A stretch of 64,000 nucleotides of DNA, taken from the NCBI RefSeq assembly GCF_002902985.1, contig NZ_CP026167.1:1302001-1366000 (forward strand), written 5' to 3'. The position numbers were made by a program, and so were the translations under genes. The notes beneath the pieces are model-generated. The model was not told the origin of the DNA and searched no databases. It saw only the letters and a program-made list of their open reading frames with translations. This DNA comes from Leclercia sp. LSNIH1 (GTDB taxonomy: Bacteria; Pseudomonadota; Gammaproteobacteria; Enterobacterales; Enterobacteriaceae). Below, piece by piece: positions 23,564 through 38,908 of the stretch; the stretch's first letter is position 1; every line of letters begins with the position of its first letter.

Positions 23564-25237
<1,674 letters not shown>

Positions 25238-25269
25238 TCATGTTGTTCTGCACCTCGCAGAAATGAACA

Positions 25270-25300
25270 AACCCCCGGTCAGAAATGATCGGGGGTTTTT
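25270..25300 (+). terminator. groESL terminator
   Basis: The stem AACCCCCG / CGGGGGTT around a 12-base loop, followed by a T-run, lies 33 bases after the groEL stop. Confidence 0.9.
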
Positions 25301-25374
25301 CTTTTGGTCATCTTTTAGGTATAAGGTTTAGACGCGGGCAGCACGTGCCCAGCTTATTGAAAACGAGGAATAAC

Positions 25375-25728
25375 ATGCGCGTTAAAGTGGGTGCAGGGAT
25401 CGTAGCGGCAGCGTTGCTGCTGGCGGGGTGTAGTTCCGGTAACGAACTCTCTACTGGTGGGCAGAGCGTTCGCTTTGTAGAAGATAAGCCGGGCAGTGAA
25501 TGTCAGCTGGTCGGTACCGCAACCGGTAAACAAAGTAACTGGCTTTCAGGGCAGCATGGCGAAGAGGGCGGTTCAATGCGCGGTGCGGCAAACGCTCTGC
25601 GTAATCATGCAGCGGAGATGGGCGGGAACGTGATTTATGGCGTAAGCAGCCCAACCCAGGGTTTACTGTCGAGTTTTGTCCCGACCGCCAGCGAAATGCA
25701 GGGCCAGGTTTATAAGTGCCCGAACTGA
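25375..25728 (+). CDS. yjeI: DUF4156 lipoprotein YjeI
   Basis: 117 residues from the ATG at 25375 (same length as E. coli YjeI). ACGAGGAA precedes the start; the longer open frame from 25285 crosses the groEL terminator. A lipoprotein signal with LLLAGC gives the lipid attachment site at Cys19. The conserved body is SECQLVGTATGKQSNWLSGQ and ends GQVYKCPN. It is an outer-membrane lipoprotein of unknown function. It is the last core gene before the accessory region. Confidence 0.92.
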   Translation: MRVKVGAGIVAAALLLAGCSSGNELSTGGQSVRFVEDKPGSECQLVGTATGKQSNWLSGQHGEEGGSMRGAANALRNHAAEMGGNVIYGVSSPTQGLLSSFVPTASEMQGQVYKCPN

Positions 25729-25735
25729 TTTGATT

Positions 25736-25769
25736 GGTGCCTTTTTCAGTGATGAGAGGCACCTTTTTT
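25736..25769 (+). terminator. yjeI terminator
   Basis: The stem GGTGCCT / AGGCACC with a 14-base loop is followed by six T. The A-run inside makes it usable from the minus side for the yjeJ-like gene as well. Confidence 0.85.
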
Positions 25770-25779
25770 ATAAAAGCTA

Positions 25780-26643
25780 TCAGGCGCTAATTTGTGCATT
25801 TATTTCTGAATAAAAAGACTTTAGATACTGCATGCACTCCTCCAGCGTCATCATTTTACCCGGCTCAGAAGGGAAGTATTTGCTAAATATCTGGCTGGGC
25901 TGGCACTGGGTATGAACTTCTATAAGTTTTGGATTTCTTTCAGCCATGCGCATTATAACGCTGTTTTCATGTTCTGATGGATGTGGGGCGCTGGTTTTAA
26001 TTAAAGCACCAGAAATAATTTTCTTACCCTCGTCCGTATCGCAACAAAAAAGTATGGCCAAAGAGTGCGTAAAAAGATTAAGTTTCCACTCATCTGGAGA
26101 ATAATATTGGTAGTCGACACCATGAGCTTTTGTCAAATCTACAGCACAAAGCATCAGAAAATCCATCGTTGAACTCAAATAATGAGTTACATCACTATCA
26201 TCACAATTTTTTAACGTCTGCTGAATTCCTACTAAAAGCGCCTCTACCTGCATATCATCAATACGCAACGAGACTATCTGTTCATTCTGAAGTACCAGGA
26301 TCAGCGTTGACCAGCTCTCTCCTGGTTTTAATGTAATCGACATTACGCGTTTTTCCGGGTTTGGTTGCTGTATTTCCGAAAGGTCGATCATTGGGGTATT
26401 AGATATTAAGCGCTCATTAAAAGCAGTAAGTTCTGTTTTATAAGCCTCGCCTTCATTATTGAGACGCTGCAGTACTGCTACCATTCTGTTCTGAAGGACT
26501 AATAGTAAATCAGCCAGCATCTGAACCTGAAAATAATATGTATGGCAAATTTCATTTTGCAGTTTGGTTTTAAGCATGAGAGCCATAAAACGTCCTTCAT
26601 ATTTAATCCCTGCAGTATTGAAACCAATAAATGAACCTTGCAT
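25780..26643 (-). CDS. YjeJ-like protein, last gene of the microcin-export operon
   Basis: 287 residues, soluble, no signal peptide or membrane helix. The ATG at 26643 is preceded by AAGGAG at good distance; an internal Met20 is the alternative. Visible pieces are MSITLKPGESWSTLILVLQNEQIVSLRIDDMQVE, then SSTMDFLMLCAVDLT and a C-terminal MMTLEECMQYL. In E. coli a protein of similar length, YjeJ (function unknown), occupies the place between yjeI and epmB, so this is probably its homologue; that rests on position and length. It starts only 20 bases after the exporter ATPase stop and is surely co-transcribed with it. A role in the peptide system (self-protection, regulation) is speculation. Confidence 0.6.
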   Translation of the reverse strand: MQGSFIGFNTAGIKYEGRFMALMLKTKLQNEICHTYYFQVQMLADLLLVLQNRMVAVLQRLNNEGEAYKTELTAFNERLISNTPMIDLSEIQQPNPEKRVMSITLKPGESWSTLILVLQNEQIVSLRIDDMQVEALLVGIQQTLKNCDDSDVTHYLSSTMDFLMLCAVDLTKAHGVDYQYYSPDEWKLNLFTHSLAILFCCDTDEGKKIISGALIKTSAPHPSEHENSVIMRMAERNPKLIEVHTQCQPSQIFSKYFPSEPGKMMTLEECMQYLKSFYSEINAQISA

Positions 26644-26663
26644 GCGACTCTCCTTGTGTGCTG

Positions 26664-28790
26664 TTACGCTGAAATTAGTGTATTGGGTTGCGATAAATCA
26701 ATAATGCGATCGGCTGAAGCAATAGTGGACGGCCGATGAGCAACAATAATTCGGGTAATACTTAAACCAGATATAGACTGGTTAATAGCAGATTCGTTTT
26801 TAAGGTCGAGATGGCTGGTTGCTTCATCCATAAATAAAATGCTGGGCTTACGATAAAGTGCACGTGCTATCAAAATACGTTGCTTTTGGCCGCCAGAAAT
26901 ACCTAAGCCAAGCTCACCCACAATGGTTTCATATCCCATCGGCATTTTCATTATTTCGTCATGGATGTTACAGCGACGTGCGCATTCGATAACAAAATCC
27001 ATATCTGCGTTATCTTCAAAACCGCTGATATTTTCAATAAGCGATCCTGAGAATAGTCTGTCTTCCTGGAGTACGCAGGCCGTTCCCTGGCGAAAATTAT
27101 TAAGCCCAATTTTCTGAATATCGAGGTTGTCCGCCAGAACATCACCAGTTGTCGGAGACAGCAGGCCACACATAACTTTTAACAGCGTAGTTTTTCCCAC
27201 GCCGGAAGGGCCAACCAGAGCCACTGATTCACCGGGTTCGACGATGATATTTAAATTTGAGAAAATTGGCTGTGAGAACGGATCGTACTGATAGCTAAGG
27301 TTTTTTACCTCTAACTTAACGCCGGAATTTTCTGTAAAGATACGCCGCGAAGGCAACTCTTTTTCTGGTTCACTAAAAACAATCTCAGAAAGACGCTCAT
27401 TATGTAATGACAGCATACGCAACTGCATGACCAGATCGACCAAACTGGATGCTCGCTGGGAGAATTGCCCACGATAGGCATTAAATGCCATAAACATACC
27501 GAGCGTCATATTATTTTCAATCACCATAATAGCGCCAAGCCAAAGCACTGCAACCTGATCGATAGAGGTAATTAAAGTATTGATACCGCCAAACATCATG
27601 TCGAAACGAGTCTGTTTTATACCAGCATTACAAGCATCGATATTAATGTTCAACCAGTGCTGTGAACGACGGTCTTTTAAATTCAATGCCTTGATAGTCG
27701 AAATACCATATAGTGACTCCATGAAGTGTGAACTGGAGCGAGCACCCTTTATAACCTGCTCTTCAGAAACTCGACGATAGAAACTATAGGTAGCGAATCG
27801 CATAATGGCATAGCACAATGTGAAACCTACAACCACCCAAACCAGCCAGCCGCCATAAAGCGTTAACATCACCAACAGGCCAATGGTCATTATTGTGTCG
27901 ATAATGCCTGTCACAATACTATTAGTAAAAGTTGCACGAATAGTATCCAGCGATGAGAAACGAGACTGAATGTCACCTAAATGCCGTTTTTCAAAAAAGG
28001 ATAACGGTAAACTCGCCAGATGATCAAAGAGCGTTGTTTTCCACTGAATATTGGTGAGGGTATTCAGCGTCAATGAAGTCCATGCCCGAAGCATGCTGAT
28101 AAACATGCGGAATAGAGTAAAGAACACCAGACCAATACAGATAACTGACAGTAAGCTCTGATCGTGCGCCATAATAACATGGTCAGTGACCAGCTGTGTT
28201 CCAATCGGTAATAATAAACTGATAGCTTCAACCACTACCGAAAAAGCGAAGATTTTTAGCAGGACGGATTTCAAGCCTACAATATTACGCATAAGATCCA
28301 GCAGGCGTAGACGAGACTTAGCATGCTCTTGCTGGAAATTTTTGTCCGGCCAAAGCTCCAACGCAACGCCAGTGAAGTTGTTGGACATCTCCTGAATGCC
28401 AATAATTCTTTTGCCCAAAGCAGGATCATGCACTATGAAGCTATTCTTACGCACTTTAGTCAGTACAACGTAATGGTTCATACCCCAGTGGATAATGCAG
28501 GGGAGCTTTAGTTGTTTTATTTCATCGAGATCGAGAGAAAGCGCCCGGCTTTTCAGTCCAGTATGCTCAGCTGTTTTACTCAGAGACATTAGTGTTACGC
28601 CCTGAGAAGGGCTGCCGTAACGGTGGCGGAAATTAAATAGATCAATATTGAGTCCGTAGAAGCCGCAAATCATAGCCAGGCAGGCAATCCCGCATTCTGA
28701 TGCCTCTGACTGTAAAATAACGGGTGTTTTATGACGGATTGAAAAGTTAAGTTTATTTATAATCGTTTTAAAAATCTCTTTATTCATCAA
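26664..28790 (-). CDS. C39 peptidase-containing ABC exporter (CvaB/MchF-like)
   Basis: 708 residues. The N-terminal C39 cysteine peptidase has Gln27 and catalytic Cys33 in QSEASECGIACLAM, the His in IHWGMNHYVVL (about 107) and the Asp in VHDPALGK. Six membrane helices follow (about 165-450). The ATPase has Walker A LVGPSGVGKTTLLK (about 525), the signature LGLGISGGQKQR and Walker B ILFMDEATSHLD, with H-loop Histidine in RIIVAHRPS. Such exporters cut double-glycine leaders and pump the peptide out with an HlyD-type adaptor and TolC. All catalytic residues are intact. It overlaps the adaptor gene by 11 bases. Base composition is A+T-rich compared with flanking core genes. Confidence 0.93.
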   Translation of the reverse strand: MMNKEIFKTIINKLNFSIRHKTPVILQSEASECGIACLAMICGFYGLNIDLFNFRHRYGSPSQGVTLMSLSKTAEHTGLKSRALSLDLDEIKQLKLPCIIHWGMNHYVVLTKVRKNSFIVHDPALGKRIIGIQEMSNNFTGVALELWPDKNFQQEHAKSRLRLLDLMRNIVGLKSVLLKIFAFSVVVEAISLLLPIGTQLVTDHVIMAHDQSLLSVICIGLVFFTLFRMFISMLRAWTSLTLNTLTNIQWKTTLFDHLASLPLSFFEKRHLGDIQSRFSSLDTIRATFTNSIVTGIIDTIMTIGLLVMLTLYGGWLVWVVVGFTLCYAIMRFATYSFYRRVSEEQVIKGARSSSHFMESLYGISTIKALNLKDRRSQHWLNINIDACNAGIKQTRFDMMFGGINTLITSIDQVAVLWLGAIMVIENNMTLGMFMAFNAYRGQFSQRASSLVDLVMQLRMLSLHNERLSEIVFSEPEKELPSRRIFTENSGVKLEVKNLSYQYDPFSQPIFSNLNIIVEPGESVALVGPSGVGKTTLLKVMCGLLSPTTGDVLADNLDIQKIGLNNFRQGTACVLQEDRLFSGSLIENISGFEDNADMDFVIECARRCNIHDEIMKMPMGYETIVGELGLGISGGQKQRILIARALYRKPSILFMDEATSHLDLKNESAINQSISGLSITRIIVAHRPSTIASADRIIDLSQPNTLISA

Positions 28791-30066
28791 TCGGCCCGCT
28801 CACGCTTTGCATAATTTTATAGAAAGGGGTAAACATCCACATATAAAGAGGACGTTCCTCCAGGAAAACCGCAGCCTGCGCCTTCAAACCATTTGAAAGC
28901 GTAAGTACTTTCCCATTATAATTAAATTCTTTATTTTTAATTTTTATAATGGCTTTATAAAGCGCTAAATCTTGCTGGTTAGAACCATTACTTACGTTGG
29001 TATATTCAGCCATCTCCTGTCTCGAGGCAGGAACTGATGAAAGCGTAAGAACTTCACCAGGGAACTGACCAAACTTATCCGCCGGGAATGCATCGTAGCG
29101 TATATTAATAATATCCCCTTTCTTAATGTAGGGGATTGCGTTATTTGGCAACCAAATTATTAGGTAATATTCAATGTTTCCTGTCGGTTTAATTTGCGCA
29201 AGACTGCTGCCATTTTCAACCATCTGGCCTTTAGTAACGGCCAAAGATTCTATTTTACCATCGATTGTTGCTTTGATAATAATATTGCCATTTGCATTTG
29301 ACTCTACTAATTGGTTTTTAAAATCATTTATTTGATTGTTCTGGCCAGAAATTTGATTGTCAAAGTCGGCCGCTTTAGTAACTTTATCACTGTTCGCTTG
29401 TGTAAGCTGAGTTTCAAGCTGCATTTTTTGACTAACAAGAGACTGATAAGCGCTTTGTTGCTGAAAGTATAACGAATGTTGATAGTTATATTGGTCTTTT
29501 GTAATCAATCCATCTTTAAGATACTTATCGTAGCTGGCCAGGTTAGTATGCATTTTATTTAACCCTGCCTGAGTGTTTATCAACATGCGGCTAGTTTCTT
29601 CCAGTGAATCTTTTATAGTTGCAATTTGTTTTTCGATGGCACGCAATGTTTCTGATTTGTTATGCGAAAGTTTGCTAATTATATTTTCCGCATTCGCTAT
29701 TTTTTGATCAATAACTTCGATCTGCGCAGTATTTACGTTACCATTAATGGTGCTACGCGAAATGTCCAGTTTATAAAGCGGCTGTCCTTTATTTACAATT
29801 TCGCCCACTTTGACATACTGATTAACAACAAAACCTTGCTGAGGAGCAAAGACGTTAACAGAGTGAGGGAGAGTGATAACTTCACCTCGAACATCAATAC
29901 GTTGGGTAAAGGAGCAAAAAATAAGTGACAAAACAAGTACAGCAATAAAAGTAAAAGCCAGTAGAGTGACTATCCAGGCTGGCATTCCTGCTAATAGTAA
30001 TGCCTTTCCTTTCCAGTGATTTTTTTTATATTCAATCGCTTCCCTGCGATAAATTTTTCTCAGCAT
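28780..30066 (-). CDS. HlyD-family periplasmic adaptor (CvaA/MchE-like)
   Basis: 428 residues from the ATG at 30066; a GTG three codons earlier is possible. It has a cytoplasmic N-terminus, one membrane helix (about 29-52, IVTLLAFTFIAVLVLSLIF) and a lipoyl-like half (VFAPQQGFVVNQYVKVGEIVNKGQPL). A long coiled-coil hairpin covers about 115-250, and a beta-barrel domain ends near the C-terminus. It links the inner-membrane ABC exporter to TolC for type I secretion. It lies between the peptide gene and the exporter gene, separated from the peptide gene by a hairpin. Confidence 0.92.
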   Translation of the reverse strand: MLRKIYRREAIEYKKNHWKGKALLLAGMPAWIVTLLAFTFIAVLVLSLIFCSFTQRIDVRGEVITLPHSVNVFAPQQGFVVNQYVKVGEIVNKGQPLYKLDISRSTINGNVNTAQIEVIDQKIANAENIISKLSHNKSETLRAIEKQIATIKDSLEETSRMLINTQAGLNKMHTNLASYDKYLKDGLITKDQYNYQHSLYFQQQSAYQSLVSQKMQLETQLTQANSDKVTKAADFDNQISGQNNQINDFKNQLVESNANGNIIIKATIDGKIESLAVTKGQMVENGSSLAQIKPTGNIEYYLIIWLPNNAIPYIKKGDIINIRYDAFPADKFGQFPGEVLTLSSVPASRQEMAEYTNVSNGSNQQDLALYKAIIKIKNKEFNYNGKVLTLSNGLKAQAAVFLEERPLYMWMFTPFYKIMQSVSGPIDE

Positions 30067-30095
30067 AACTACCACTTATTTCTGCTTTAGTAATA

Positions 30096-30117
30096 AAGGC
30101 CTGAATTATCAGGCCTT
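30096..30117 (-). terminator. Attenuator-like hairpin between peptide gene and exporter genes
   Basis: A perfect 9-bp stem AAGGCCTGA / TCAGGCCTT with a four-base loop is followed on the minus strand by TTATTACTAAAG. It lies 55 bases after the peptide stop. Partial termination would give more peptide mRNA than exporter mRNA. Confidence 0.65.
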
Positions 30118-30171
30118 ATTTAAGTATAAAAGGATTTATACTATTTTTTTATATAACCATTCGGTTATACA

Positions 30172-30537
30172 TTAGCTCCATGGAGCGAAGGTTCCACTAA
30201 AGAAACCGTTAGCGCCCGCAGAAGATTGCTCTAAAGCAAAATCCCAACCGCCCATGGCGCCATAAATAGCGCCGCCAATGGCACCGACTACCAGACCCCA
30301 AATCATCCCAACACCCTGACCAGCTGCGCCAACGCCAAGCAGACCACCGCCGTTACCGCCCTGGGAGCCGCCAATGATTGAGCCATACATAGCAAATGCT
30401 GCTCCAGTAATTAAACCGGAGGCAACCGCTTCAAAACCGTTGCTCACAACACTGGTAATTGCTGAGCCGAGAGAAGAAAAATCCCAGGAATAGCCACCAG
30501 AGATAGCTTCCATTTCAAATGTAGTTAAATTTTGCAT
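30172..30537 (-). CDS. Double-glycine-leader, glycine-rich peptide (class II microcin candidate)
   Basis: 121 residues from the ATG at 30537, preceded by AAAGGA at six to eight bases; the longer frame to 30636 starts with TTG and lacks such a site. The leader MQNLTTFEMEAISGG is a typical 15-residue double-glycine leader for C39 exporters. The predicted mature peptide is 106 residues, has no Cys, and is rich in Gly/Ala with small-xxx-small patterns in two hydrophobic segments (LITGAAFAMYGSIIGG and GMIWGLVVGAIGGAIYGAMGG) joined by SQGGNGGG. The tail is NGFFSGTFAPWS. This fits a pore-forming unmodified microcin or bacteriocin. It lacks the Ser-rich C-terminus of siderophore microcins. I do not recognise a named member. 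Confidence 0.8.
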   Translation of the reverse strand: MQNLTTFEMEAISGGYSWDFSSLGSAITSVVSNGFEAVASGLITGAAFAMYGSIIGGSQGGNGGGLLGVGAAGQGVGMIWGLVVGAIGGAIYGAMGGWDFALEQSSAGANGFFSGTFAPWS

Positions 30538-30680
30538 GTTTAATCCTTTAAGTGGTATGTCAAAATATATTTCTTTTAGGCCATTCACTAATAACTGACC
30601 TGCTGAAAATATAACTTTTACTATGAGGTTGAGCAACTAAATTAAATATTAAGATATAATTAAATGGTCGTTTGTTTTCT

Positions 30681-30713
30681 AAAAAAAAAGAGATTTTCAC
30701 AATCTCTTTTTTT
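30681..30713. terminator. Bidirectional terminator after the fimbrial operon
   Basis: An A-run, the stem AAAGAGATT / AATCTCTTT with loop TTCAC, and a T-run form a symmetric terminator just past the adhesin stop at 30728. It insulates the microcin promoter from fimbrial transcription. Confidence 0.85.
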
Positions 30714-30727
30714 AATTTTGGATCTGT

Positions 30728-31744
30728 TTACTCTTCTTGAATGACAACTTCTAGTATAGCTTTTACATTTCCTGTGGTGATTTCGTTGATATTGCTGCTC
30801 GATCTATAATAGTCTGCTGTAAAGGCAAAGGATTGAGATGTTGTTACATTATTAATATAGTATTTATCCATATCATAAAAAACGATTGGTTTGTTATCTT
30901 TTTTGAAAATAATGCCTACATTACTTGCTGCATTGGCACCAGTTAACATATTATCAATGATGCCATCACCATATGCGCTGGTTCCTGTTATGGGGTTGAA
31001 CCAATAGGTTACTTTGTTACCCAGCGCGTTTGCTGGACAAAGTATATTCATAGTAATCGTTTTTTGAGCCGGAGTTATTCCTCCTCTTGATACTGATAGA
31101 AGTGTATTTTTTTCAATTCTATTTAGTGTTACCTGACTTGAGCCTGCAACTGATATATCACATGAGCTATCTTTAAAAGTGATATTACTGATTTTAACAT
31201 TTGCGTTGACTAAAGTCCTCTCTGCAGGTTTTGGGTTAGTGACTAAATTGCCAACAGAGAAATTGATTGATGCATCAGCACTTGTTCCAGATATGTCAAT
31301 AACAGATTTGGTTTTTATCAACCAAATCGTTATAAATTCATAATCATTATTAGACTTTTCGATCGGTACTATCGTTGATCCCACAACTGCAGGTTTTACC
31401 GAACCATTTTTGCTGGCTAAAATATCTGAAACCTGAAAACCGATGCCGTCAATACCGGTCGCATATACGGGCTTCCCTTGTAATCCAGTAACGCCCGGCA
31501 CTTCAGGGGCGGTAGATGAAATTATATACTGATCACCCAAGACCTTACTACACGAGAAAGTTTTATAATGTCCAGTACCAAATTTCTTGCTGAATAATAC
31601 CGAACCAACCGGAATAGATGGGTCGGTCGCTATTTTAGGCGATATGGAAAGGGTTAATAATTTGCTGCTGCCGTCATAAGTACACTTTGCCATAGCATCG
31701 CTATAACAAAATATAATTCCCAAAAAAAATAATACTTTCTTCAT
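30728..31744 (-). CDS. Two-domain fimbrial tip adhesin (FimH-like)
   Basis: 338 residues from the ATG at 31744, which follows AAGGGAG and starts a clear signal peptide (KKVLFFLGIIFCYSDAMA, cleavage before KCTYDG). The frame is open to 31777 but that part overlaps the usher gene. The N-terminal ~170 residues would be the lectin domain. The C-terminal ~150 have the pilin pattern: Cys pair (SCDISVAG ... ILCPANAL), MLTGANAASNVGIIFKK, and the terminal strand VKAILEVVIQEE used for chaperone and donor-strand contact. Placed last after pilin, chaperone and usher, as FimH-type adhesins are. The receptor is unknown. Confidence 0.82.
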   Translation of the reverse strand: MKKVLFFLGIIFCYSDAMAKCTYDGSSKLLTLSISPKIATDPSIPVGSVLFSKKFGTGHYKTFSCSKVLGDQYIISSTAPEVPGVTGLQGKPVYATGIDGIGFQVSDILASKNGSVKPAVVGSTIVPIEKSNNDYEFITIWLIKTKSVIDISGTSADASINFSVGNLVTNPKPAERTLVNANVKISNITFKDSSCDISVAGSSQVTLNRIEKNTLLSVSRGGITPAQKTITMNILCPANALGNKVTYWFNPITGTSAYGDGIIDNMLTGANAASNVGIIFKKDNKPIVFYDMDKYYINNVTTSQSFAFTADYYRSSSNINEITTGNVKAILEVVIQEE

Positions 31745-31767
31745 AAATTCAACTCCCTTGAAAGTCA

Positions 31768-34317
31768 TTAGCGGCATATGGCATCAATTTGATTAACTCC
31801 ACTGACACCCTCTTCCCTTGCCGATAAATCAAATGATGCACGGCATTGCTGAGCGGTGCTTTCTCCCCACTTGACATCGAGAATACCGGTTTGCTTAAGG
31901 CCAGAAAAGTAAACCATGCCAGCATCACCCACTATGTTAGTTTGCTTGCTAATATCATTTAACAACAATGCAATGGCACCAAAAGGAACGTTTTTACCAT
32001 CATTTGTTTTAAGATGGATAAAAGCACGCTGCCCAATTTTTCCTGAATAATTTGTGCGCACTATAGCTCCGCGGGTGGGTACCACCGTTTGAGTTGTTTC
32101 CGGTAATTCCATATTATCAGCCAACGTTGAGCTATCCAGCGTAATATCAGTCCGGCGGTAAGGCGTTACATATGGAACAATTGCATAGCCGCGATAATCT
32201 GTAGAAATGGTGGCATCGTTAGTCAGTTTTACATCATTTAACCCAGGTGCTTTTACCAGAACTGCAGCGTCGGTTATATTCTGACCAAAAGTGAGGCCAT
32301 CAGCATGGGCAATAACGCTTCCGCTGGCACCATAATCAATACGCTGACTATTACGATTATAGCTATAACCCGCGTTAATACTACCTCGTGAGCCGTTATA
32401 GGTTGCGCGCATATCGCCGCTATAGTAATCCTCTCGGTTGCTGTACCCCTGCTGAATACTCCACTCCAGGCTATCATTTTCGAGCCCGATACCACCGATA
32501 GCGACAGATTGATCAGTTGAGCCGGGATTACTGTTGGTTAACTGATAGCTGGTATAGGTGCCAGGCAGCCAGTTACTCAGAGGAACAGTTACTGTCAGAT
32601 TTACCCGCTGGTCGTCCTGAGCATCTTTGCCTGAACTGTTGCCATTCCAGGTATAGCGGTTATAACTGTAACCGAGATAATAAGTAATGCTGTTCCAGCC
32701 ACCGTTATAGCCGATGCTTATCGATTTGTTGGTGCGCTTATTATCCCAATAATCTTCAATAAGTCCGCTGATTGATAAACTTCCCAGGCCTTTTCCTAAG
32801 TTTTGGTTTACTGTCAAATTTGTTCTGTTGCGCAGTGCGCGGCCAGCTGAGTAGCTACCGTCATTAGAATAGGTATCCAGCACATCAGTTAATGTATTGA
32901 AACCTTTTGTAGAGTAACGATAACCCGCAATGGTAATGTTAGTCCCTGTTTCAATAATGTTTTTACCGTAGCGTACCCGCCAAGATTGCCCGGATGTTTT
33001 TTCCTGGTCGCGTTTTTTTGACCATGCCTGGATAACATCCACAGAGATGGCACCGAGATCGCCAAGATTATAACCAAGGCCTGCTGAAATGGACTGGTAA
33101 TGTGAAGAGAACTGGGTTCCCCCATAAACTGTTGTACTACTGGTCGCCCCATAGCTGGCCGTGGCTTGGGTAAACGGTGTTTCATCAACACTGTTATCGT
33201 AGGGACGGTATTTACCTGAGGTAATTTCATACTCAACTTGTTTTTCACGAAGCATCAGCGGGAGCGTCGCAAATGGCACGACAAAGTTTTGTGTTGTACC
33301 ATCGGATTCTTCGACAGTGACATAGAGATCGCCGCTACCACCGCTGGGGTACATGTCGGTAATCTCGAAAGCTCCAGGTGCGACGTAAGTCTGATACACC
33401 TGGTAGCCGTTCTGTTTAATCACCACACGGGCATTGGTTTTTGCGATACCGCGTACGATCGGCGCATAACCACGCATACTTTCTGGTAGCATGCTGGTAT
33501 CTGTCGCTAATTGCAGGCCTGTAAAGGGAACGCTATCAAAAATGTTAGACAGTGAAGAGCTTTCCCCGATTACCAGATTACTGTTAAGTGAACGGATACT
33601 GCGTTGCATATAAAGATAGGCAGAATCCCAGGCTCCCTCATCACTACGGGTTTTATTCCAGGTACTGAGATTGCGGATACGCCATGCCCCTACATTCAGC
33701 CCGGACTGTAGGTTCAGGCTATAATATTCATCCTTGGACTCAAGATCCTCTGAACCGCTGAACTGATAATTCACCAGCAGCGCATTGATGCCGTCATCAA
33801 ATTGCTCTGGAGGTATATATCCCTGAGCGGTTGTAGACATCGCAGCCTGGGGGATCGAAATATTAAGCCGCTGTGTTGCAAAGTCGAATACGGTTTCAGT
33901 ATCAGGAATTACATTAAGGTTGGCGCACCCTTGCTTATTTTCCTGTAAAGCGGGAAATGAACTCACTTTGACGCCATACCTGGATAACATCTCCAGGCTT
34001 AAACAAGGGGCAAGTTTAAGTTGGTCGTCATTAGCGTTGGCATTGCTGTCAATAACAAAATTAATGCTTTTTGTCTCAAGGTAACGACCATTAAAGATGA
34101 TATCTACACGGTACTCCCCTGGTGCCTGGGCATGTCTGTTCTGAAAAACTGATAAATCTGGAATATCTAAGGGACTGCCATTATTTGCAGAGTTAATAAA
34201 TGCGGGATCAAAGAAATCGCGTGCATATGCCTTATTGTTTAATTCGTGGTACAACGCACAAAGCATTGCCAAACACAGAGTTGATAACTTTAATAGCCCT
34301 TTATTTTTATTTTTCAT
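31768..34317 (-). CDS. Fimbrial outer-membrane usher (FimD family)
   Basis: 849 residues from the ATG at 34317, chosen for the AAAAGGGA upstream and the signal peptide that follows; an in-frame ATG at 34344 is poorly preceded. The N-terminal domain shows the usher hallmark FDPAFINSANNG...DIPDLSVF and YRVDIIFNGRYLETKSINF. A 24-strand barrel with plug region follows (AYAPIVRGIAKTNARVVIKQNGYQVYQTYVAPGAFEI). The C-terminal domains end in a paired-Cys segment (QQCRASFDLS ... IDAICR). It forms the pore through which chaperone-subunit complexes are assembled. It lies 30 bases after the chaperone gene. Confidence 0.95.
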   Translation of the reverse strand: MKNKNKGLLKLSTLCLAMLCALYHELNNKAYARDFFDPAFINSANNGSPLDIPDLSVFQNRHAQAPGEYRVDIIFNGRYLETKSINFVIDSNANANDDQLKLAPCLSLEMLSRYGVKVSSFPALQENKQGCANLNVIPDTETVFDFATQRLNISIPQAAMSTTAQGYIPPEQFDDGINALLVNYQFSGSEDLESKDEYYSLNLQSGLNVGAWRIRNLSTWNKTRSDEGAWDSAYLYMQRSIRSLNSNLVIGESSSLSNIFDSVPFTGLQLATDTSMLPESMRGYAPIVRGIAKTNARVVIKQNGYQVYQTYVAPGAFEITDMYPSGGSGDLYVTVEESDGTTQNFVVPFATLPLMLREKQVEYEITSGKYRPYDNSVDETPFTQATASYGATSSTTVYGGTQFSSHYQSISAGLGYNLGDLGAISVDVIQAWSKKRDQEKTSGQSWRVRYGKNIIETGTNITIAGYRYSTKGFNTLTDVLDTYSNDGSYSAGRALRNRTNLTVNQNLGKGLGSLSISGLIEDYWDNKRTNKSISIGYNGGWNSITYYLGYSYNRYTWNGNSSGKDAQDDQRVNLTVTVPLSNWLPGTYTSYQLTNSNPGSTDQSVAIGGIGLENDSLEWSIQQGYSNREDYYSGDMRATYNGSRGSINAGYSYNRNSQRIDYGASGSVIAHADGLTFGQNITDAAVLVKAPGLNDVKLTNDATISTDYRGYAIVPYVTPYRRTDITLDSSTLADNMELPETTQTVVPTRGAIVRTNYSGKIGQRAFIHLKTNDGKNVPFGAIALLLNDISKQTNIVGDAGMVYFSGLKQTGILDVKWGESTAQQCRASFDLSAREEGVSGVNQIDAICR

Positions 34318-34347
34318 AGACACATCCCTTTTTATTGCTAACATCTA

Positions 34348-35034
34348 TCACAAAGGTGAAGAGTATAAAGATCCTGCTCCGCCATAATCATTTACTATCT
34401 TCCAGCTAATACTGGATGCATTGATGTCTTTAATATCAATTTTCTTAGTCGAGAATGGCGATATTGTTCTCACATCAAGGTTTATATCTGTATTTCCAAG
34501 CTTAACCATATTAAAGTAGTAAAAAAATGGAGTAGGATTCTTAAGCGTTATGGTTTTACCGGACTTACGCCATTCCAGTTTTTTTGCTTCAGTGTTCGGC
34601 GATAAACTATTTATTGATTTCGGCCGATAAATGAGGCGCATACGATGACGAACTGCAAGCTGAATGGTGTTATTATTAGCATAGGTATTATCAGAAGGGG
34701 GAATCGCCATCACGTTGAAAAAGAATAAAGATTCGCGGTCATCTGGTGCATCAACTTTAGTTGTAGCAAAAAGACGTACCGTATTTTGCTGTTTAGCTTC
34801 CAGACGAAACAACGGAGGAGTGGCTAGAAATGAAGGTGATTTCCCTGCCGGAGTCTCAACCCATGATTTAATTAAATAAGGCATGTCATCTTTGTTTTCA
34901 ATTTGTGCGGTGATTTCACGCGAACCTTCTTTGTAAAGATAGCGAGTTGACTCAATTACAATGCCAGCATGAGCGAGATTACTTACTAATAATGTGCACG
35001 CCAGGTTAACGATAAATAGAATAGTTCTGAGCAT
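34348..35034 (-). CDS. Periplasmic fimbrial chaperone (PapD/FimC family)
   Basis: 228 residues with a signal peptide (cleaved after LAHA). The two immunoglobulin-like domains are visible: GIVIESTRYLYKEGSREI with the conserved Arg of the subunit-binding cleft, ESLFFFNVMAIPPSD in the G1-strand region, and a C-terminal LKNPTPFFYYFNMVKLG and PFSTKKIDI. It caps fimbrial subunits in the periplasm and hands them to the usher. It is the second gene of the operon, 56 bases after the pilin gene. Confidence 0.95.
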   Translation of the reverse strand: MLRTILFIVNLACTLLVSNLAHAGIVIESTRYLYKEGSREITAQIENKDDMPYLIKSWVETPAGKSPSFLATPPLFRLEAKQQNTVRLFATTKVDAPDDRESLFFFNVMAIPPSDNTYANNNTIQLAVRHRMRLIYRPKSINSLSPNTEAKKLEWRKSGKTITLKNPTPFFYYFNMVKLGNTDINLDVRTISPFSTKKIDIKDINASSISWKIVNDYGGAGSLYSSPL

Positions 35035-35090
35035 ACGGATTTCTCAAACAGAGAGAGCCTGAGCGCATACGCCCAAGCTCTAAAAGGATA

Positions 35091-35660
35091 TTACTTGGTG
35101 GTGTAATCGATAGTAAAGGTTGCTACACCTTTAACCGGACCTTCAGTGACAGAAGTTGTTGAGTTAACTTTTACATAACCGGTGGTATAGTTCAAATAGG
35201 TCACTTTACCAGCCGTGTAAGATTCATTCATAACATTACCATCGAAGGATACGCGGGAACCATCGCTAACCTTCTGAATACCAATGCCGATACCAGCAGC
35301 GCCGTTTTCTGCAATATTGTCCAGGATGTCAGCGCTTGAACTGGTAGTACCGGTTACGGCAACGGTCAGGCCATTTACGTTGGAAGCATTCGAGCTGCCC
35401 AGAGCACAGTCTTTAACTTCAAAACCGAACTTCTGTGCTTTAAACAGAGTATTTGCTGCCTGTCCATTTGCTTCACTTGTGGTGACAGTAGCCAGACGAA
35501 CAATACCGTTGTTCAGGGTACCAGTCGGAGTCACGACGCAAGAAGTAGAGGAGTCAGAAACTTCACCAAGAACAGTCACTTCTGCATTGTTAATTGCCAG
35601 AGCCTGTGCGCTTACAACTGCAGAAGCAGCAACCATTACAGCTACGATTGTTTTTTTCAT
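35091..35660 (-). CDS. Major fimbrial subunit (FimA-like pilin)
   Basis: 189 residues. The signal peptide KKTIVAVMVAASAVVSAQALA is followed by a mature N-terminal extension (NNAEVTVLGEVSDSS) for donor-strand exchange. The disulfide Cys pair is in SSTSCVVTPTGTL and EVKDCALGSS. The C-terminal beta-zipper is GVATFTIDYTTK. It is the first gene of the four-gene operon, directly downstream of the A+T-rich control region. No separate minor pilins (FimF/FimG-like) are present, so the tip is probably only the adhesin. Confidence 0.92.
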   Translation of the reverse strand: MKKTIVAVMVAASAVVSAQALAINNAEVTVLGEVSDSSTSCVVTPTGTLNNGIVRLATVTTSEANGQAANTLFKAQKFGFEVKDCALGSSNASNVNGLTVAVTGTTSSSADILDNIAENGAAGIGIGIQKVSDGSRVSFDGNVMNESYTAGKVTYLNYTTGYVKVNSTTSVTEGPVKGVATFTIDYTTK

Positions 35661-36145
35661 TTGTTTAATCCATTTAAAAGTACTAGGGTCCTAAATAGTT
35701 GCCAGCCTTACGGTTATCGTTATTAAGATAATAACTAATACTAATAACAATTTTTATTAATACTAACGTGGTTGACACTATAGTTACTTGCTTGCCATTC
35801 CATAAAGCACAAATCGTGTTCGAAACACGTATACTGTTGCCCGGTGGAAGCTACATAAATTAAAAATGTTCTCTCCAAAAAAAGCATGTGAATGTTTCAT
35901 CATTTTACTTTCGCAATGGTGATTCATATTGTGTTTAGCCAAGGTGAAGAAGGAGATGGTTAATGTGAAATCAGAATTATCATTTTTATCTGGATGTGAT
36001 AATCTTCATTCATATAAGCCAAAGCACATGCACCTGGTGTTTAAAGTATCTTTTTTCAAAGAGTTATGCATCTATCATGGTTCATGTTTATGGTTTTTGG
36101 TGATGTATTGTTATTTTGCATAAATAAAGGGTAGGGAGATTCTTT
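35661..36145. promoter_or_regulatory. A+T-rich control region between fimbrial operon and its putative regulator
   Basis: 485 bases with no convincing gene; a 64-codon open frame from 35929 begins with TTG and is Cys/Phe/Lys-rich without family features. It must hold the divergent promoters for the pilin and the ToxR-like gene. Visible are a compact palindrome CGTGTT-CGA-AACACG at 35815-35829 (operator candidate), a TTGACA at 35772-35777, and long A/T tracts that could bind H-NS. No inverted repeats or recombinase gene typical of fim phase switches were seen. Confidence 0.5.
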
Positions 36146-36709
36146 ATGTTATTCAATTCTTACATGATAAATGATAAAGTTATATTTAATGTGAATAAGA
36201 GTGAACTTCAGTCATTAACGGATAATGGTGTTACGGTGACCTTAAATGCGCCTACAGCGCGATGTTTGCAGCTATTACTTGATAGTTCCGGAAAAGTGAT
36301 TTCGCGTGAGAAATTTTTGGATGAGGTTTGGAATGCGAGAGGAGTGGTGGTTTCAGAAAATACGTTTTACCAAAACATTTCACTCCTCAGGAAATCTTTA
36401 ATCAGAGCCGGGCTCAATAACGAAATAATTATAACGGTAAGAAGACGTGGTTTTGTTATTTCTGAAGGAACGGTAATCAAAATGCTTCCTCCAGACGAGA
36501 AGGCAAGTTCTGGGGATCAAATTCTTCATAAGAGAATTATTCAGGATGTAAATAAAAGTCAGTTGCTAGCAATACAAACGGGATTACCAAAGAAAAAAAT
36601 GGAGGGTTATTCATATAATATATCAAAGCTTTCAGTAAAACTGTCATTTTTAACACTTGTATTAATGGGGTTTATGACAGTAGCTAATATAATAATATTT
36701 TTCATTTAA
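36146..36709 (+). CDS. ToxR/CadC-like membrane-anchored winged-helix regulator
   Basis: 187 residues; GGGAG seven bases before the ATG. The N-terminal OmpR/ToxR-type winged helix (about 10-105) is recognisable from LNAPTARCLQLLLDSSGKVISREKFLDEVW and ENTFYQNISLLRKSL followed by IITVRRRGFVIS. A linker follows, then one C-terminal membrane helix (about 167-187, LSFLTLVLMGFMTVANIIIFF) with practically no periplasmic domain. It is transcribed away from the fimbrial operon and probably controls it. Such short one-helix versions are common next to fimbrial operons. No sensing domain is visible. Confidence 0.82.
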   Translation: MLFNSYMINDKVIFNVNKSELQSLTDNGVTVTLNAPTARCLQLLLDSSGKVISREKFLDEVWNARGVVVSENTFYQNISLLRKSLIRAGLNNEIIITVRRRGFVISEGTVIKMLPPDEKASSGDQILHKRIIQDVNKSQLLAIQTGLPKKKMEGYSYNISKLSVKLSFLTLVLMGFMTVANIIIFFI

Positions 36710-36844
36710 ATGAAGGGGGAATGATTTTATAGAAGCTTGTGAGGATCTTTTTTATTATTTATCCCAAGTGTTAATGTGACTGTTTTAAAAACCCAAAGCA
36801 TGAGATCCCGCTTTTTAACGGGGTGGAGCGTGCGTCGGATGGTG

Positions 36845-36979
36845 TTACGTTTGAGGCTGCAGGTTGTGGGAGTGCACTTTCTTACTATTGCCTATTAGTG
36901 CAAACCCCAATTCCGAACCTTTCATAAACTTTTTTGCTGAAGTGAAGATAGCATCAACGGATATTGCCCACTGTTTCAT
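36845..36979 (-). CDS. Possible small protein of 44 residues
   Basis: ATG at 36979 with AAGGA eight bases upstream; stop TAA at 36847-36845. The product begins MKQWAISVDAIFTSAKKFM and includes GSELGFALIGNSKK; it resembles no family I know. It is downstream of epmB on the same strand, beyond a hairpin. It could be a remnant of a larger lost gene or a real small protein. Low certainty. Confidence 0.25.
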   Translation of the reverse strand: MKQWAISVDAIFTSAKKFMKGSELGFALIGNSKKVHSHNLQPQT

Positions 36980-37009
36980 ATGATGGGTCCTTTTTAATAA
37001 TATTCAGCC

Positions 37010-37042
37010 AGCCCCCATACTTCTGAAAGGAGATAGGGGGCT
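37010..37042 (-). terminator. Possible epmB terminator
   Basis: The stem AGCCCCC / GGGGGCT lies about 30 bases past the epmB stop. The following minus-strand sequence is A/T-rich but without a clean T-run. Confidence 0.5.
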
Positions 37043-37071
37043 ACCGGTATTTGTTACGGCCGAAAGAAGGC

Positions 37072-38103
37072 TCAGGAACGCTGCTTCAGGCCCAAATCCA
37101 GCGGCGTCTTACTGGGCTCCCCCCCAATCTCACGCGCCAGCTTAGGCACCATATAACCGGACACCAGGGTTAACAATTCACGCATTATGGCGCGCGCTTC
37201 TTCATCATCGACCATAAAGTGCGCCGCACCCTGCACCTTATCCAGTACATGGATGTAATAGGGCATTACCCCGGCATCAAACAGGGCATTACTCAGGTCG
37301 GCCAGCGTTGCCGCACTGTTATTCACACCACGCAGGAGAACGCTTTGATTGAGTAATGTCACGCCAGCACGTCGCAGTTTTGCCATTGCAGCCCGAAACG
37401 TATCGTCAATCTCGTTGGCATGGTTGATATGGTTGACCAGCAAGATTTGCAGCGAAGAACGCGCCAGCCGGTGAGTCAGCTCATCGGTAATACGTGCCGG
37501 GATCACAATGGGTAAACGGCTGTGAATGCGTAGCCGCTTGATGTGCGGGATCGCTTCCAGCTGCGTAATTAACCACTCCAGCTCATGATCTTTCGCCATC
37601 AGTGGGTCACCGCCAGAAAAGATGATCTCATCCAGCTCCGGATGAGCGGCGATGTAATCAAGCGCCGTCTGCCAGTTACGCTTGTTCCCCTGGTTATCGG
37701 CATAGGGGAAGTGGCGACGGAAACAGTACCGGCAATTTACCGCGCAGCCGCCCTTAACCAGTAACAGTGCGCGATTACGGTACTTGTGCAGTAAACCGGG
37801 CACCACGCTGTTCTGCTCTTCAAGGGGATCGGTGCTGAAGCCGGGGGCGGCGATAAACTCATCCTGCGCGGTCAGCACCTGTTTTAAAAGCGGATCGTCA
37901 GGGTTGCCTTTTTCCATTCGCGCAACAAAAGCGCGGGGAACACGCAGCGCAAACAGACGTTTTGCGTCACGCCCGGCAAGGAGTTTTTCGTCAGCGTCTA
38001 CATTCAAAAGACGGAGTAGTTCATCAGGACTGGTGATTACATCGGCAAGTTGCAATAACCAATCTTCTCTGGATGGGGTGTTTAGGGTTACAATATGCGC
38101 CAT
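37072..38103 (-). CDS. epmB: EF-P lysine 2,3-aminomutase EpmB
   Basis: 343 residues (E. coli 342). Radical-SAM motif CxxxCxxC in [17 protein letters not shown] (Cys at about 120, 124 and 127), [11 protein letters not shown], and the PLP-lysine region near the C-terminus ([21 protein letters not shown]). It converts (S)-alpha-lysine to (R)-beta-lysine, which EpmA attaches to EF-P. It is divergent from efp with a 40-base gap, the usual arrangement, and epmA lies 6.5 kb away, as in E. coli. Confidence 0.97.
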
Positions 38104-38143
38104 TTTGTGGCTTAGCTACCAGTTAACAATTTCAGAGGGCCTT

Positions 38144-38710
38144 ATGGCGACTTACTATAGCAACGATTTTCGTGCCGGTCTTAAAATCATGATGGATGGC
38201 GAACCGTACGCGGTTGAAGCCAGCGAATTCGTTAAACCAGGTAAAGGTCAGGCATTCGCACGCGTTAAGCTGCGCCGCCTGCTGACCGGTACCCGTATCG
38301 AGAAAACCTTCAAGTCTACCGACTCTGCCGAAGGCGCAGACGTTGTCGATATGACCCTCACCTACCTGTACAACGACGGTGAATTCTATCACTTCATGAA
38401 TAACTCTACTTTCGAACAGCTCTCTGCTGATGAGAAAGCCGTCGGTGACAGCGCTAAATGGCTGCTGGATCAGGCTGAGTGCATCGTGACGCTGTGGAAC
38501 GGCCAGCCTATCGCTGTGACCCCACCAAACTTCGTTGAGCTGGAAATCGTTGAAACCGATCCAGGTCTGAAGGGTGACACCGCAGGTACTGGCGGCAAGC
38601 CAGCTAAACTCTCTACCGGTGCTGTGGTTAAAGTTCCACTGTTCGTCCAGACTGGCGAAGTGATCAAAGTTGACACTCGCTCTGGTGAATACGTTTCTCG
38701 CGTGAAGTAA
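38144..38710 (+). CDS. efp: Elongation factor P
   Basis: 188 residues from the ATG at 38144 with AGAGGG upstream; the frame is open further left but overlaps epmB. It has three beta-barrel domains. The modified Lys34 is in [16 protein letters not shown] and the C-terminal signature is [22 protein letters not shown]. It relieves ribosome stalling at polyproline stretches, and its Lys34 is beta-lysylated by EpmA and EpmB, both encoded in this window. Codon use is that of a highly expressed gene. Confidence 0.98.
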
Positions 38711-38727
38711 TTCATTTCGGGATGTTG

Positions 38728-38748
38728 GGCGCAGCACTCTGCTGCGCC
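38728..38748 (+). terminator. Hairpin after efp
   Basis: A 9-bp stem GGCGCAGCA / TGCTGCGCC with a three-base loop lies 17 bases past the efp stop, followed only by TTACCATT. Probably a leaky terminator, leaving some readthrough into ecnA. Confidence 0.6.
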
Positions 38749-38776
38749 TTACCATTCTAAAGAAGGGTCATGGAAG

Positions 38777-38908
38777 ATGTCGCGTACACTCAAAATTATC
38801 CTGATGACAATGATTGCCAGCGCTCTGCTTTCCGGCTGCAACACCGCCCGTGGTGTTGGGGAAGATATCAAAAGCCTGGGTAACGCTATTTCGCACGCCG
38901 CCTCCTGA
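38777..38908 (+). CDS. ecnA: Entericidin A lipoprotein
   Basis: 43 residues, too short for usual ORF cut-offs. The lipoprotein signal is MSRTLKIILMTMIASALLSGC; the mature part NTARGVGEDIKSLGNAIS is the entericidin signature. EcnA is described as the antidote of the EcnA/EcnB pair. It is followed 106 bases later by ecnB. The ATG at 38777 is chosen over an out-of-frame ATG at 38770. Confidence 0.9.
   Translation: MSRTLKIILMTMIASALLSGCNTARGVGEDIKSLGNAISHAAS

Follow-up and report, generated by a model that had tools for sequence, protein, structure and literature searches.

The genome of Leclercia sp. LSNIH1 carries, in the 64,000-nucleotide stretch analysed here (contig NZ_CP026167.1, positions 1,302,001 to 1,366,000; hereafter the window, from whose first letter all its coordinates are counted), a locus between groES-groEL-yjeI and epmB that joins a complete set of chaperone-usher fimbrial genes to a glycine-zipper peptide and its dedicated export genes. 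On the minus strand and in the order of transcription the locus encodes a pilin, a chaperone, an usher, a putative adhesin, the peptide, an HlyD-type adaptor, a C39-peptidase ATP-binding cassette (ABC) exporter and a YjeJ protein, and at the level of its genes there is a strong case for regarding it as a fimbria-linked export cassette of the Cdz-like or class II microcin-like kind. An earlier sequence-only reading had recognized the 121-residue double-glycine peptide followed by HlyD and a C39 exporter with intact catalytic residues, which the open reading frames, Pfam domains and Cys32/His105/Asp121 triad bear out. It had taken YjeJ for the only other member of the operon; YjeJ is indeed soluble and begins 20 bases past the stop of the ABC gene, but the fimbrial set (30728-35660, minus strand like the peptide), which lies 190 bases upstream of the peptide gene, had been missed. 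The unit is larger than 25780..30537 and the fimbrial gene set belongs to it. We propose that this is a secretion cassette whose peptide is used at cell contact, most likely against neighbouring bacteria, a reading to which we give about an even chance. The features of the locus are as follows.

25780..26643, minus strand: island-type YjeJ, 287 residues, soluble, last gene of the operon (PF15922, 125.8 bits, cut-off 27)
26664..28787, minus strand: C39 peptidase ABC exporter, 707 residues (Peptidase_C39 129.3 bits, ABC_membrane, ABC_tran; triad Cys32/His105/Asp121)
28780..30066, minus strand: HlyD-type adaptor, 428 residues (HlyD_3 and related Pfam domains), overlapping the ABC gene by 8 bases
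30096..30117, minus strand: attenuator- or terminator-like stem-loop of 9 pairs in the peptide-HlyD gap (gap fold z -5.30)
30172..30537, minus strand: glycine-zipper peptide precursor, 15-residue double-glycine leader and 106-residue core (translation, relatives, composition, GxxxG)
30683..30713, minus strand: A/U-rich stem-loop with a U-run between the adhesin and peptide genes (-12.2 kcal/mol, z -2.59)
30728..31777, minus strand: putative fimbrial tip adhesin (MrkD-like receptor-binding domain 18.3 bits, below the cut-off of 27; follows the usher in relatives)
31768..34344, minus strand: fimbrial outer-membrane usher (PF00577 600.3 bits, PapC_N, PapC_C)
34348..35034, minus strand: fimbrial periplasmic chaperone (PapD_N, PF00345, 123.7 bits, and PapD_C; over cut-off)
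35091..35660, minus strand: major fimbrial subunit, pilin (PF00419 35.0 bits, over cut-off)
36146..36709, plus strand: winged-helix regulator, divergent from the fimbrial genes (Trans_reg_C 49.6 bits, over cut-off)

The linkage of usher and peptide recurs across exporter loci. An exporter search yielded 35 named loci, which together with loci from a plasmid collection, the window and stretches from other genomes make up a non-redundant set of 50 (nine duplicates, L003, L103, L104, L106, L109, L112, L113, L114 and L119, were left out). Usher and peptide are both present in 30 of these and both absent from 18, with an usher alone in one (L065) and a peptide alone in another (L072, where the contig starts three bases before the peptide frame); an usher thus accompanies 30 of the 31 peptide-bearing exporter loci as against 1 of the 19 without a peptide. 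With shared ancestry ignored throughout, the Fisher test for this link gives 1.9e-11 over all 50 loci, 3.7e-8 over the 33 named loci that remain when the contig-edge cases L072 and L085 (both included in the 50) are set aside, and 4e-4 over the 25 named loci of the same exporter subfamily. The co-directional order pilin-chaperone-usher-adhesin-peptide-HlyD-ABC is found in Serratia (L082, L089), Erwinia (L084), a metagenome-assembled genome of Enterobacteriaceae (L088) and L143, where the link is seen also away from the groEL site. In L002, L067, L080 and L108 the peptide genes come after the adhesin, and the HlyD-ABC-YjeJ genes lie across yjeI, apart from the peptide (although titled a K. pneumoniae plasmid, the record of L002 extends over 5.37 Mb and contains chromosomal genes). 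The control consisted of five further C39 exporters on plasmids (HlyD 42-44% identical), fetched from 714 matching records; by annotation and by sequence, no usher lies within 9 kb of any of them.

The association extends to a divergent class of loci, here class B. Of 18 stretches taken around additional peptide matches, seven have exporter genes and all seven of these an usher (L143, L145, L147, L153, L154, L155 and L158, with L145 on the same contig as L088); the 11 stretches lacking exporter genes include one with an usher (L146) and 10 with none. In L147, L153 and L154 a regulator is followed by a TolC-family channel, HlyD, ABC, the peptide, as a rule another small double-glycine peptide, and then pilin, chaperone, usher and adhesin; L155 begins with the peptides and fimbrial genes. 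The same class B parts occur in the Pantoea plasmids L166, L167 and L169 and in Burkholderia ubonensis (L168), whose peptides score 46-76 bits against the iterated peptide profile. A second short double-glycine peptide stands directly before the pilin in L154 (9510-10346), L168 (11240-11930) and L155 (9386-9934), which suggests a two-peptide system. Distant double-glycine, glycine-rich peptides are also encoded in L148, L149, L150, L156, L157 and L159 (at about 9.3-10.3 kb), with exporter and usher absent over the 19-kb stretch.

The peptide gene encodes 121 residues, with the leader MQNLTTFEMEAISGG ending in SGG. C39 exporters cut double-glycine leaders and export the mature peptide, and the anatomy of the locus supports the leader cleavage and type I export predicted earlier. 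The exporter has intact protease residues and the ATPase motifs Walker A, signature and Walker B, and its alignment with solved bacteriocin transporters runs over its length (E 1.3e-93). With 20 OEP-family matches in the same genome, candidate outer-membrane channels for export are available. The catalytic residues correspond to those named in the accessible part of PMC9746304. The mature peptide of 106 residues has no cysteine, Gly making up 25.5% and Ala 14.2% of it; it contains 14 GxxxG motifs where 5000 shuffles gave 6.4 on average (p = 0.0002). The earlier description of a Gly/Ala-rich membrane-type peptide holds in these respects, but the broader small-xxx-small motifs on which it had leaned are not enriched (31 vs 27.2 in shuffles, p = 0.09). 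Residues 37-98 include neither charged residues nor proline, and one Asp and one Glu lie beyond residue 98. The C-terminus, GFFSGTFAPWS, is not the Gly/Ser-rich siderophore motif of class IIb microcins, as had been noted. The match to Bacteriocin_IIc (16.5 bits) is below its cut-off of 27.1, and none of the NCBIfam models matches the peptide.

The peptide had been called new-looking, a description that no longer stands: 53 proteins, its own included, match it at E 1 or better in a set of 5.8 billion proteins, the named ones being mostly from Klebsiella and several labelled colicin V. These relatives conserve the leader and first mature residues (YSWDFSS in most), and the remainder is variable. 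Six of the matching proteins (P0048, P0049 and P0052-P0055) are variants of one peptide with identical N-termini and scrambled C-termini, resembling frameshifts or sequencing errors in a Gly-rich region. The gene is present once in its own genome; up to five tandem copies occur elsewhere (L116). Of 246 genomes of the family, 17 gave matches at E 0.001, several of which were weak, and 3 of 394 genomes sampled across the order gave profile matches at E 1e-6; a class A exporter (at least 68% identity, full length) is found in 14 of 20 genomes of the Klebsiella genus-level group. A DNA search with the peptide, the exporter adaptor and part of the usher gave no match in 5426 E. coli genomes at the sensitivity used. 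The family is narrow but common in Klebsiella. In view of these relatives and of the recurrent fimbrial linkage we rejected a lone new microcin as the whole story.

In its design the locus is reminiscent of the Caulobacter crescentus Cdz system (CdzC/CdzD/CdzI and CdzAB) and of Cdz-like clusters, which in the sections of PMC5380434 available to us share a leader ending in G[G/A/S], a glycine-zipper core without charge or proline, and an adjoining HlyD and C39-type exporter. With 121 residues and a leader ending in SGG the Leclercia precursor lies within the Cdz-like range (60-151 residues), and its zipper is uninterrupted by proline or charge over residues 37-98. The short polar or charged C-terminal region of Cdz-like proteins would have to be sought beyond residue 98, in the part with one Asp and one Glu. 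It differs in its chaperone-usher set of fixed gene content, in the presence of YjeJ in one lineage and in lacking a CdzI-like three-helix protein; moreover, Cdz proteins kill, whereas the Leclercia peptide is a putative toxin. The same sections list Cdz-like systems in K. pneumoniae, S. marcescens and Erwinia, remark that immunity genes are hard to identify in such clusters, and note adhesion genes, such as those for 'thin aggregative fimbriae', in many of the regions, so that the occurrence of fimbriae near Cdz-like genes is already in print (García-Bayona 2017). Searches of an open-licence library gave no description of a fixed chaperone-usher, exporter and peptide cassette, which proves little.

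The locus also has the parts of class II microcin clusters such as those of MccV and MccH47, namely a double-glycine precursor, a C39 exporter with its triad and an adjoining membrane fusion protein of the HlyD type, as set out in the consulted portions of three surveys (PMC9746304, PMC11494933, PMC13101503). It departs from them in its fimbrial neighbourhood and in having neither a siderophore-type C-terminus nor a small membrane immunity gene; the absence of the latter had been noted earlier, and none was found in the 105- and 190-base gaps on either side of the peptide gene. According to these partial texts, microcin matches occur in nearly all assemblies of K. pneumoniae, K. quasipneumoniae, K. 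variicola and K. aerogenes (PMC9746304), and of 40 Serratia microcins tested, which may or may not include the fimbria-linked peptide, 17 were confirmed overall, clades II, IV and VII showing no active member (PMC13101503). The Klebsiella matches, which may or may not include the Leclercia peptide, and the K. pneumoniae Cdz-like candidates of PMC5380434 likewise speak against calling the peptide new. The order major subunit-chaperone-usher-tip is that of K. pneumoniae chaperone-usher loci, eight of which are covered in PMC4353729, whose text as available makes no mention of HlyD, groEL, an ABC transporter or colicin.

Evidence for maintenance of the operon comes from substitution rates. In eleven locus pairs the ratio of nonsynonymous to synonymous rates (dN/dS), where computable, lies at 0.07-0.43 in the peptide, 0.07-0.27 in YjeJ and 0.01-0.06 in the exporter; the peptide is the least constrained of the genes compared, still below 1, and values well below 1 for every gene imply that the operon is maintained. 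A further conserved element is the stem-loop between the peptide and HlyD genes, a gap that folds better than its shuffles. In 26 of the 27 loci where the peptide precedes HlyD the gap contains a stem of 7 pairs or more, in most of them with T-rich sequence after it, and a consensus terminator scan did not list the stem-loop at 30096-30117. It is probably an attenuator that lets the peptide outnumber the exporter.

On the proposed mechanism the exporter, as is established for C39 exporters, would cut the peptide after Gly15, and the 106-residue core, made in excess over the exporter, would leave through HlyD and a TolC/OEP-family outer-membrane channel. The core may form two long uncharged GxxxG-rich helices, a design shared with Caulobacter CdzC/CdzD, from which we infer that it would stay on or near the cell surface and aggregate or insert into membranes. 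There it would act where the co-encoded fimbria keeps cells together, most likely on neighbouring bacteria, and YjeJ would be an added, lineage-restricted factor that the peptide system as such does not require. A more far-reaching form of this proposal, which we regard as rather unlikely, would have fimbria and C39-exported glycine-zipper peptide constitute a single weapon, the fimbria bringing and holding the target and the surface-held peptide acting on it, in two gene orders spanning gamma- and beta-proteobacteria and, in the loci seen, without a membrane protein dedicated to immunity.

Several observations weigh against a contact-dependent weapon. There is no visible immunity gene at the locus, an oddity if the peptide kills. 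In K. michiganensis L065 fimbria and exporter are retained but no peptide is recognizable; conversely, the stretch with the L144 peptide, which is close to the Leclercia family, includes no exporter and no usher (the contig ends 1.4 kb past the peptide), and the same is true of the stretches of nine further, distant peptides. Peptide and fimbrial genes do not diverge in step (rank partial r -0.03 to 0.10), and the dN/dS of the peptide does not exceed 1; positive selection, which we considered, was not seen by this test, a weak one with synonymous sites near saturation in several pairs. The structure model of the peptide is itself weak (predicted local distance difference test, pLDDT, 70.8). 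Finally, the A/U-rich, terminator-like hairpin between adhesin and peptide leaves co-transcription of the fimbrial genes and the peptide unproven, and the peptide may have a promoter of its own.

The question of immunity centres on YjeJ. The Leclercia protein is homologous over its full length to E. coli yjeJ of the PF15922 family, but the exporter-linked copies form a clade separate from the solo and E. coli genes. It has no hydrophobic segment above the threshold used; Foldseek, run against the pdb and viral libraries, found nothing that reached E 0.001, fold comparison hints at one PUR-like half, and a PUR family search of 60 genomes of the phylum found none, leaving nothing to compare. YjeJ is present in 26 of the 31 peptide-bearing exporter loci, the exceptions being L082, L083, L084, L088 and L089, and is also absent from L143. 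The constant pairing of YjeJ and peptide that the sequence-only reading had put up for checking meets with a divided outcome: of the 246 genomes of the family, 37 have YjeJ matches that adjoin a Leclercia-type peptide in only 6, but the solo genes belong to another clade. All 29 island-type YjeJ genes analysed are exporter-linked, by choice of sample. The six peptide loci without YjeJ led us to reject it as a universal immunity gene. Equally rejected was a resident yjeJ beside which the island had landed, given that YjeJ stands beside the exporter on stretches without groEL or yjeI (L075-L079, L093, L115) and that Kluyvera L119 carries both the exporter-linked and the E. coli type. YjeJ as a lineage-specific cognate factor stays open.

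This last possibility is central to an alternative that we consider unlikely, in which the peptide is an ordinary diffusible class II microcin, YjeJ an unusual soluble immunity protein and the fimbrial genes mere neighbours in a groEL-epmB hot spot. Leader, exporter and adaptor are those of class II microcins, and YjeJ lies directly downstream in those 26 loci, including ones away from groEL and yjeI. In a mirror-tree rank test YjeJ and peptide co-diverge beyond the exporter (partial r 0.24-0.27, p 0.0045-0.011), and the divergence of HlyD, usher, chaperone, pilin and adhesin is not tied to that of the peptide; a first version of the test had given larger values and also linked YjeJ to the usher, a link that the rank version removed. 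L002 and L108 have exporters of 100% protein identity, yet identity is 73% for YjeJ and 64% for the closest pair of peptides, indicating fast divergence of the latter two. However, the correlation is weak, drawn from 23-25 related loci with p values that ignore phylogeny, known immunity proteins are small and membrane-bound rather than soluble with a putatively PUR-like half, six peptide loci do without YjeJ, and the usher linkage is seen at other genomic sites and in the divergent class.

The lack of an immunity gene would be readily accommodated if the peptide were a structural or adhesive secreted component of the fimbria, a matrix or pilus-associated amyloid-like protein rather than a weapon. 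The fimbrial linkage in two architectures, the lack of a dedicated membrane immunity gene in class A, the double-glycine leaders on the second small genes of class B and the tandem copies in L116 are consistent with this, as is the commonness of glycine zippers in amyloids (noted in the consulted part of PMC5380434). Nevertheless, the high turnover among close relatives, with one to five divergent copies, is more like that of competition genes, and Cdz proteins of the same design kill, which makes a purely structural role improbable in our view. Pheromones, too, are exported by C39 exporters, and a winged-helix regulator stands beside many loci (16 of the 25 island loci compared, some of which end before the regulator gene). 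A pheromone-like signal read by that regulator is nonetheless a very remote prospect: the strongly hydrophobic 106-residue core is unlike known pheromones, and the tie between regulator and peptide does not hold in class B, which has other regulators.

If the proposal of a contact-acting, fimbria-linked peptide is correct, a large class of peptides at present taken for diffusible class II microcins would instead serve as weapons on contact or as fimbria-tied adhesion parts, their activity could escape screens in which E. coli secretes them singly and lacks the fimbria, and fimbrial clusters of Klebsiella and Serratia would gain a second job. The exporter-linked YjeJ clade is in any case set apart from the uncharacterized E. 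coli gene, which serves as a linked marker in the only paper found to mention yjeJ often (PMC10679819).

No Rfam family matched within positions 25000-38800 of the window. YjeJ genes on two Serratia plasmids (L004, 8001-8858; L006, 6001-6858) lie beside a tyrosine recombinase and outside both main YjeJ clades. Just past the exporter of L082 (11207-11407) and L083 (11246-11446) there is a 66-residue open frame that is nearly identical in the two Serratia species.

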